Assembly (NCBI GenBank): GCA_009840595.1
Contig: VXNK01000106.1
Span: forward strand, 2,252-36,175
DNA: 33,924 nucleotides
Reading direction: 5' to 3'
Source of the DNA: Rhodospirillaceae bacterium
Lineage (GTDB): Bacteria > Pseudomonadota > Alphaproteobacteria > Bin65
Of the stretch, positions 8,638 through 9,924 are shown piece by piece. The first letter of the stretch is position 1. Every line of letters begins with the position of its first letter. The notes beneath the pieces were generated by a model that did not search any database, was not told where the DNA came from, and saw nothing but the letters and a program-made list of their open reading frames with translations. The translations under genes were made by a program, and so were the position numbers.

Positions 8638-9029
8638 GGGCGGCTTTCGGGTCGGTTGTCGGGAAACGGGGCAGGGCCGGCAATCGCACCTTCGGCAGGG
8701 AAGGGCAAGGGCGCGTATGGCGCCGGCCCCCGGCCGGCCCGGCAAACGAGAGGGATCGAGCCTGCGGGCGCCACGGAGGGGAGAAAATTCGCGGCCCGGC
8801 AGTCAGTCGGTTTGGAATCGTGCGATACGCCGCAGCCCGGCATCCCTCTTATTGTCACCCCGGACGGAGCGGAGCGACGATCCGGGGCCCAGGGGCCACA
8901 GGCTGAAGTCTTTCGGATCGGCCCTGGGCCCCGGATCAAGTCCGGGGCGGCAAAACTGGATTCCTGGGCATCGACGAACTGGCGACGCTTGCAGTTTTCA
9001 CCGTCTGAGAAATATCGGGTGCTGCTACC
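8638..9029. other. Intergenic stretch between the sulfatase and hicB
   Basis: This is the divergent spacer between the minus-strand sulfatase and the plus-strand hicB promoter. It contains the palindromic repeat at 8854-8947. I see no convincing reading frame, RNA gene or clear sulfatase promoter in the rest. Confidence 0.5.
8854..8947. repeat. Palindromic intergenic repeat element
   Basis: A nested inverted repeat. The inner arms at 8879-8897 and 8920-8937 are complementary apart from one extra C, and the outer arms CCCCGGAC (8858-8865) and GTCCGGGG (8940-8947) match perfectly. The wording (CCCCGGAC..GATCCGGGG and CCCGGATCAAGTCCGGGG) resembles short dispersed palindromic repeats seen between genes in many alphaproteobacterial genomes. 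It would fold into a long hairpin if transcribed. Only one copy is in the window. Confidence 0.75.
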
Positions 9030-9058
9030 TTGAAAATTAATTTTACACCTTGTAAATA
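9030..9058 (+). promoter_or_regulatory. hicBA promoter with overlapping palindromic operator
   Basis: A -35-like TTGAAA (9030-9035) and a -10-like TAAATA (9053-9058) are separated by 17 bp. The spacer carries a perfect 12-bp palindrome AAAATTAATTTT (9033-9044) and a dyad TTACA-CCT-TGTAA (9043-9055) that touches the -10. The AT-rich block stands out in GC-rich surroundings. Autorepression by the antitoxin complex, as known for hic loci, is inferred. Confidence 0.65.
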
Positions 9059-9094
9059 ATGCAGGTTCAAAACTGCTCTTCGACCGGAGGCGTT

Positions 9095-9700
9095 ATGGCC
9101 GATCGCATCGGACCCGAAACCCGGAACCCGCCGATCCATGCCGAGGTGCTCGCCGCGGCGCAGCTCTTGTGCGGGACGGCGGATTGGACATTCAGGCTTG
9201 TGGATGTCGTTCGCGCTCTTTCCCATCTGAACGAACGCTCGGTCCGCACCCATGTCGCCAGCCGGTGTTGCGAGAACGCGCCGGAAAATCATGCCCATCG
9301 CTGGCCGTATTTCCGCCGGGTGGGCAGGGGCGTTTACGAGATCCTGCCGGCGTATCGCGGAAGCCGGCCCGGCGGCACGGTAACCTACGACCGGTCCGTA
9401 ACCGACGACCCAACCGGCTATCCGCTCGCAGCCCGCGATTCGGCGCAAAGCGAGGGAAGGTCCGCCATCCATGCCGTCGTCGCAGAGAGCGAGGGATGGT
9501 TCGTCGCCGAATGCCTGGAAGTGGCGGTCGTAACGCAGGGCCGGACGCTGGATGAGACGCTGGCGAACCTGCGGAGCGCGCTGGCGCTGCATCTCGACGA
9601 CGAAGAACTTTCGCGGACCGGCCTCTCCCCGGCGCCGCGTCTCGCGGTCAGTTACGAAACCTCCGCCGTCGCCCCCGAATGGCGCGCCCGAAGCGGCTGA
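9095..9700 (+). CDS. hicB: HicB-family antitoxin with N-terminal DUF7669-like domain
   Basis: A 201-residue two-domain protein. Residues about 14-86 look like a DUF7669-type winged-helix module, with the pattern SVRTHVASRCCENAPENHA..FRRVGRGVYEI. Residues about 124-190 are HicB-like: a partial RNase-H fold strand pattern AVVAESEGWFVAECLEV, then TLDETLANLRSALALHL. A proline/glycine-rich linker joins them. ATG at 9095 is preferred: GGAGG lies four bases upstream, and an ATG at 9059 would precede the expected transcription start. The gene overlaps hicA by 22 bp, so the pair is coupled with the antitoxin first. The N-terminal domain may provide DNA binding for autoregulation in place of the RHH or HTH domain many HicBs carry at the C-terminus; this is inference. 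Confidence 0.8.
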   Translation: MADRIGPETRNPPIHAEVLAAAQLLCGTADWTFRLVDVVRALSHLNERSVRTHVASRCCENAPENHAHRWPYFRRVGRGVYEILPAYRGSRPGGTVTYDRSVTDDPTGYPLAARDSAQSEGRSAIHAVVAESEGWFVAECLEVAVVTQGRTLDETLANLRSALALHLDDEELSRTGLSPAPRLAVSYETSAVAPEWRARSG

Positions 9701-9924
9701 CCTCGCGGGAGGTGCTGCGCATCCTCCGGGGTTTCGGCTTCGAGACCGTTTCGATCCGAGGCAGCCATGCCAAGCTGGTGCGCGTAACGGCGGCAGGCAC
9801 GCGACAGGTCCTGACGGTTCCGATCCATTCGGAATTGTCGGTCGGCACGGTCCGGGCGATCTACCGGCAGGCTTCCCGGTTCATCGATAGCACAGAATTA
9901 CAGCGCAAATTCTATTCCGGTTGA
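9679..9924 (+). CDS. hicA: HicA-family mRNA interferase toxin
   Basis: An 81-residue protein with the double-stranded-RNA-binding-like HicA fold: LTSREVLRILRGFGFETVSIRGSHAKLVR followed by LTVPIHSELSVGTVRAIYRQ. His30 in RGSHAKL corresponds to the catalytic histidine of HicA ribonucleases, so the toxin looks intact. Translation begins inside the end of hicB. HicA cleaves mRNA and is held inactive by HicB. The antitoxin-first order is the reverse of the classical hicAB arrangement. Confidence 0.88.
   Translation: MARPKRLTSREVLRILRGFGFETVSIRGSHAKLVRVTAAGTRQVLTVPIHSELSVGTVRAIYRQASRFIDSTELQRKFYSG

Follow-up and report, generated by a model that had tools for sequence, protein, structure and literature searches.

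How an antitoxin of the HicB family comes to control its own operon is the question that this locus raises. Known HicBs repress their own promoter via palindromes that can overlap the −10 element, and they cover the active site of HicA (PMC11594946). The small HicBs without a DNA-binding domain described in Gerdes 2024 leave operon regulation unexplained (PMC10865869). In the window, that is, the whole stretch of 33,924 nucleotides that was analysed, from a Rhodospirillaceae bacterium, there is a two-gene module on the + strand in which the antitoxin gene comes first: hicB runs from the ATG at 9095 to the stop at 9700 (201 aa) and hicA from the ATG at 9679 to the stop at 9924 (81 aa), with an overlap of 22 nt. 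Ahead of its HicB core, this antitoxin carries a domain, DUF7669, of which no mention was found in the literature searched. What does DUF7669 do there? The answer for which we argue, with a probability of about 0.7, is that the locus is a type II hicBA module whose DUF7669 would supply the missing DNA-binding domain and autorepress the operon; repression, dimerisation, toxicity and neutralisation are what we infer. The features concerned are the following:

9030–9035, + strand: −35-like hexamer TTGAAA (TTGACA in most relatives), within a CTTGA(C)A that 16 promoters conserve some 20 nt upstream of the centre of the palindrome.
9043–9055, no strand: palindrome TTACA-CCT-TGTAA, candidate HicB operator over the spacer and the −10, proposed from its uniqueness and its symmetry across loci.
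9053–9058, + strand: putative −10-like TAAATA after a 17-nt spacer, from its position and the conservation of TGTAAAT across loci.
9086–9090, + strand: ribosome-binding site GGAGG, read directly, 4 nt 5′ of the ATG at 9095.
9095–9700, + strand: hicB, the DUF7669-HicB antitoxin of 201 aa (open reading frame, Pfam, homologue alignment).
9134–9343, + strand: predicted winged-helix DUF7669 domain, residues 14–83 (AlphaFold2, winged-helix structure matches).
9359–9451, + strand: variable linker, residues 89–119 (identity 4–58%, dN near dS, pLDDT mostly below 50).
9452–9673, + strand: predicted HicB partial RNase H core, residues 120–193 (DUF7387; 1wv8, Z 8.0; 6g1c, Z 5.8).
9679–9924, + strand: hicA toxin of 81 aa, starting inside hicB by 22 nt (PF07927, E 4.4e-14; HicA of PDB 9svk, E 9e-5).
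9766–9768, + strand: codon of the predicted catalytic His30 in the RGSH motif, read directly.

The module is present once in the 4.1-Mb genome, and the neighbouring genes that were scanned are sulfatase and transporter genes, with no defence genes among them. An upstream start for hicB, the ATG at 9059, was discarded on two grounds: it is not conserved, and it sits where the −10 region ends. Other members of the genus also have, near this locus and in both orientations, the intergenic repeat found at 8853–8898 of the window (around CCCCGGACGGAGCGGAGCGACGATCCGGGG).

Pfam assigns residues 44–82 of the antitoxin to DUF7669 (PF24706, E 5.6e-6, 26.9 bits against a cut-off of 23), and the score exceeds the gathering cut-off in all five fusion proteins scanned. 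The HicB half falls slightly below the cut-off for DUF7387 when the whole protein is searched (PF24113, 26.0 bits against 27.9, residues 115–169), and it matches TTHA1756 (2yzt) in phmmer with an E of 4e-4. The toxin belongs to the dsRBD family of HicA and has its conserved His (PF07927, 52.8 bits against a cut-off of 27; His30 in the motif RGSH). A reading of the sequence alone had proposed both an N-terminal DUF7669 on a 201-residue HicB and an intact, overlapping HicA with His30, and these matches bear it out. The genes of HicBA/HicAB systems are adjacent, overlapping or tightly linked; they overlap by 22 nt here and by at least 1 nt in 15 other fusion loci. Neither NCBIfam nor PADLOC gave a match for the HicB fusion or for HicA.

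The structure of the antitoxin was modelled with AlphaFold2 from 20 sequences, including viral HicB rows, an earlier run with 11 sequences having left the HicB half unresolved. The N-terminal part of the model has helices at residues 14–25, 35–41 and 47–54 and strands at 32–34, 73–77 and 80–83 (pLDDT mostly 84–92), and the resulting order, helix-strand-helix-helix-strand-strand, is that expected of a winged helix. The same sequence-only reading had named structure prediction beforehand as a possible refutation of a winged-helix fold in the N-terminal module; the fold predicted is a winged helix. In the C-terminal part, strands at 124–132, 135–140, 146–149 and 182–188 and helices at 152–166 and 169–175 (pLDDT mostly 77–91) correspond to the partial RNase H core of HicB (b-b-b-a-b). 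The linker between the two folds is modelled as disordered, with a pLDDT mostly below 50. The loop at 58–67, around an invariant Cys-Cys and His66, has a low pLDDT and is not resolved in the model. Residues 58–70 (9266–9304 of the window) include C58, C59, H66, H68 and W70, invariant in 11 of the 11 aligned fusions, and are a possible metal site or recognition loop, at low model confidence.

The VIA-align scores, which at this size can by themselves reflect merely a common arrangement, were, for the N-terminal part, Z 7.8 with IdeR (4o5v; rmsd 2.7, 66 aligned), Z 7.0 with MntR (2hyf) and about 6 with MarR, Fur, forkhead and DpnI and, for the HicB part, Z 8.0 with TTHA1013 (1wv8; rmsd 2.8, 68 aligned), Z 6.5 with the SWOL_0700 antitoxin (3k6q) and Z 5.8 with the N-domain of B. 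pseudomallei HicB (6g1c). It is the consistency of the list of matches, together with the Pfam and PDB sequence matches, that carries the fold assignment.

Chance does not account for the fusion: four more genomes of the genus keep its reading frame and both domains, as do Acidobacteria at about 50% identity. Patterns from the N-terminal half retrieved 11 fusion loci from 84,980 species genomes (Alphaproteobacteria, two Pseudomonadales MAGs and three Acidobacteria), all of which align across both domains, and among 247 genomes of the Acidobacteria phylum eight have the full-length fusion, five of them new. With the four other genomes of the same genus, which have the fusion and hicA, the DUF7669-HicB fusion was found in 18 genomes in all, from Alphaproteobacteria, the two Pseudomonadales MAGs and Acidobacteria. 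Sixteen of the 18, that of the window included, have an overlapping hicA; in the other two, the Pseudomonadales, HicB is fused to VapB and vapC follows. The fusion HicBs are about 173–201 aa long. Because the N-terminal half is conserved in homologues, a HicB starting near residue 110 is refuted for the DUF7669-HicB family. No full-length fusion was found in phage records, viral contigs or plasmids; of the five plasmid matches, two are confined to the HicB part and three to the DUF7669 part. On a plasmid of Alicyclobacillus curvatus (L105:1268–1946), a separate small HTH gene, a small HicB and HicA, in that order, make up a split counterpart of the fusion. Among the HicA proteins of the fusion loci, only that of L032 (4666–4917) lacks the His of RGSH; it has RGSD (catalytic His to Asp), which may point to an inactive toxin or to an error in the sequence.

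Identity to the window protein is 50–99% over residues 13–88 and 51–97% over the HicB part, against 4–58% over the linker. Between the window and four members of the genus, dN is 0.006–0.132 versus a dS of 0.155–1.104 in the winged-helix part, and 0.013–0.103 versus 0.134–0.957 in the HicB part; in the linker, dN is of the same order as dS. For the N-terminal domain, dN/dS between genus members is about 0.03–0.12. Both domains are under purifying selection and the linker is not.

If DUF7669 binds DNA, where would it bind? An AT-rich block lies upstream of hicB in this GC-rich genome. A strict sigma-70 scan and a terminator scan at the locus found nothing, the −35-like hexamer not being reported, so the promoter claim rests on conservation. 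With at most one mismatch, the palindrome has one copy in the window (0.04 expected), and the exact TTACA-N3-TGTAA occurs once in the whole 4.1-Mb genome, upstream of hicB; 9030–9058, earlier proposed as the likely operator, contains this genome-unique palindrome, which supports the proposal at the level of sequence. The exact pattern occurs in four of the ten other fusion genomes, once in each and always at the hicB promoter, whilst L025, L027, L028 and L030 have the palindrome with one mismatch and L026 has it with a two-base spacer. In L054 (AAAATTAC-CCTT-GTAATTTT) and L055 (AATAAAC-AA-GTTTATT), the half-sites are changed and still symmetric. Palindromes are weak in L052, L053 and L031, several Acidobacteria have weak or different ones, and L032 (the same gene as L049) has no promoter of the TTACA-N3-TGTAA type. 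About a fixed centre, the 16 promoters average 6.19 of 9 paired positions versus 5.00 (SD 0.24) after shuffling of the sequence to the left of the right arm, and none of 2000 shuffles reached as high, an optimistic test in that the loci are related and the shuffles overstate their independence. In L054 (1041–2281, reverse complement of the locus), a PIN-domain-like toxin gene lies directly upstream of the fusion operon, whose promoter is at the end of that gene.

One simple explanation, to which we give very little credence, is that the upstream block is simply a strong AT-rich promoter that came down with the module, its symmetry being incidental: conservation of one half-site would be expected anyway, as TGTAAAT overlaps the −10, and close relatives share ancestry. 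However, the other half-site is no promoter element and yet matches, and the distant loci alter both halves while keeping the symmetry. Another explanation, itself quite improbable, is that DUF7669 acts in the oligomerisation or turnover of HicB, as a dimer interface or a degradation handle, without binding DNA, and that the palindrome serves another regulator. Winged helices can mediate protein–protein contacts, and structure matches at Z 6–8 perhaps share only a common arrangement, but a regulator of other genes does not fit with a palindrome that occurs a single time in each genome, and each time at the hicB promoter.

Neither four hicBA relatives without a DNA-binding domain (L057, L060–L062) nor ten DUF7669 genes without HicB have the palindrome upstream; because of the latter, a universal DUF7669 site is unsupported. 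Moreover, the helix motif (S/T)-(V/I)-R-T-H-x-x-S-R-C-C-x-N-A also occurs in DUF7669 proteins that do not have the palindrome, whether stand-alone, fused to GIY-YIG or of another kind, and STIRTHIVSRCCxNAPxxHH is nearly the same in L102 (stand-alone), L103 (GIY-YIG) and L065 (Mrr-like), all without it. Operator specificity is therefore not readable from the helix: either proteins of the L102, L103 and L065 type bind sites of their own elsewhere, or the helix motif does not read the hicB operator.

This shared motif is the main reason for keeping alive an unlikely alternative, in which DUF7669 is mainly a sensor, of foreign or damaged DNA or, via the invariant Cys-Cys...His-x-His loop, of metal or redox state, and frees HicA on a signal, as in an anti-phage abortive system. 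The possibility is also kept because DUF7669 is joined to several types of nuclease elsewhere (NucS_C, HNH, GIY-YIG and Mrr-like). Moreover, the NucS-type protein matches PADLOC candidate defence families, and C58, C59, H66 and H68 do not vary in the 11 aligned fusions. These Cys and His residues are not, however, kept in all DUF7669 proteins; PADLOC does not match the HicB fusion, the neighbours scanned are sulfatase and transporter genes rather than defence genes, phage records and viral contigs yielded no full-length fusion, and autoregulation accounts more simply for the palindrome. Of the earlier suggestion of a distinct hic subfamily or a sensing domain, then, the subfamily is supported, and sensing has a low probability. 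A still more doubtful idea would combine the two functions: DUF7669 would be a recognition module shared by nucleases and antitoxins, and the HicB fusion would repress its own promoter, answer a signal (foreign DNA or Cys/His-bound metal) and release HicA, in a device that could be re-armed with other toxins, as DUF7669-HicB-VapB/VapC suggests.

In the autorepression that we favour, HicA would be a small mRNA interferase of dsRBD fold, its active site covered by the HicB core, and the DUF7669 winged helix, on its flexible linker, would give HicB the operator binding that is missing in relatives without a DNA-binding domain. HicB dimers, alone or with HicA, would bind TTACA-N3-TGTAA over the promoter spacer and the −10 and repress the operon, and translational coupling through the 22-nt overlap, with which the antitoxin-first order agrees as well, may keep the toxin below the antitoxin. 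Since classical HicB both covers the active site and represses, the two jobs are most simply given to the HicB core and to DUF7669.

In a HicA tree, the partners of the fusion group together (80/89), with the class-2-like L060–L062 and the viral L079 and L081 outside; L057, which is without DUF7669, falls inside the fusion group. The simplest reading of these sequences would be one fusion event followed by one loss, with modest support. In G401, of the same genus, a decayed copy lies at the same chromosomal place (L099:1240–1472): hicB is gone and hicA is without its first 13 codons, as expected if an unguarded HicA is harmful. The two Pseudomonadales MAGs (L027:5968–7260 and L028) are 99% identical over the locus. 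In both, a full VapB (NF040493, 92.8 bits, cut-off 60) continues the reading frame of DUF7669-HicB, and the gene that follows encodes a tRNA(fMet)-endonuclease-type VapC (NF010285, 193.5 bits, cut-off 143); the promoter palindrome is kept with one mismatch (TCACACGTTGTAA), and no convincing hicA or hicA remnant was found near these vapC loci. This VapBC form shows one route by which a toxin can be swapped for another while the control region stays.

How does the module compare with known systems? Gerdes 2024 lists 14 HicA contexts, with the B-A order in classes 2 and 5–8 (PMC10865869). Class 2 has a small HicB of 63–103 codons without a DNA-binding domain (PMC10865869); it shares with the module the gene order, the overlap of the genes, the HicB core and the type of HicA, and the nearest relatives of this kind (L060–L062 and the viral L079 and L081) fall just outside the fusion group in the HicA tree, but the HicB fusions, at 173–201 aa (201 aa in the window), have in addition a predicted N-terminal winged helix and a palindromic promoter, which sets them outside class 2. 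In classes 5 and 6, an N-terminal Phd/YefM DNA-binding domain precedes the HicB core (PMC10865869), so the N-terminal position of the DNA-binding domain, which the sequence-only reading had taken as the novelty, has a precedent. Antitoxin first and closely linked or overlapping genes are likewise common to both; unlike these classes, the module has DUF7669 where Pfam finds no Phd/YefM family at the N-terminus of HicB, and it is without the HicA 'Shared Domain' of class 6. Class 7 HicBs (216–233 aa) have two DUF1902-like domains (PMC10865869), whereas the 201-aa protein has one HicB-like domain and a winged helix. Classical hicAB (E. coli HicAB with HTH, YpHicB3 and BpsHicB with RHH) shares the catalytic His of HicA, the partial RNase H core of HicB and, in some cases, a palindrome over the −10, but has the A-B order and a C-terminal DNA-binding domain of HTH or RHH type.

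The DUF7669 nucleases (NucS_C, HNH, GIY-YIG, Mrr-like) share the Pfam domain and, in some (L065, L103), the helix motif; they differ in having a nuclease effector, no HicB and no upstream palindrome. NucS_C-like, HNH-like and GIY-YIG nucleases of this sort are found in L009 (1459–2280), L010, L011, L013, L015 and L103, the NucS-type one matching PADLOC PDC-S02/PDC-S11. In L065, from the Acidobacteria phylum search, DUF7669 fused to an Mrr-like domain of PD-(D/E)XK type is encoded directly after an HNH nuclease; going by sequence motifs only, the two may form a restriction-type pair.

The word "winged" is absent from the main text of Gerdes 2024, and no DUF7669 HicB was found named there, although members could sit in its supplementary tables (PMC10865869), and a literature search for HicB fused to an N-terminal wHTH gave a match that concerns another system. 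The N-terminal DNA-binding domain and the B-A order being already known, what is new is the DUF7669 winged helix on HicB. One lineage of small-HicB modules gained both a winged helix and a palindromic promoter that is unique, which makes it a testable case of an antitoxin gaining autoregulation and gives DUF7669 a first candidate function.
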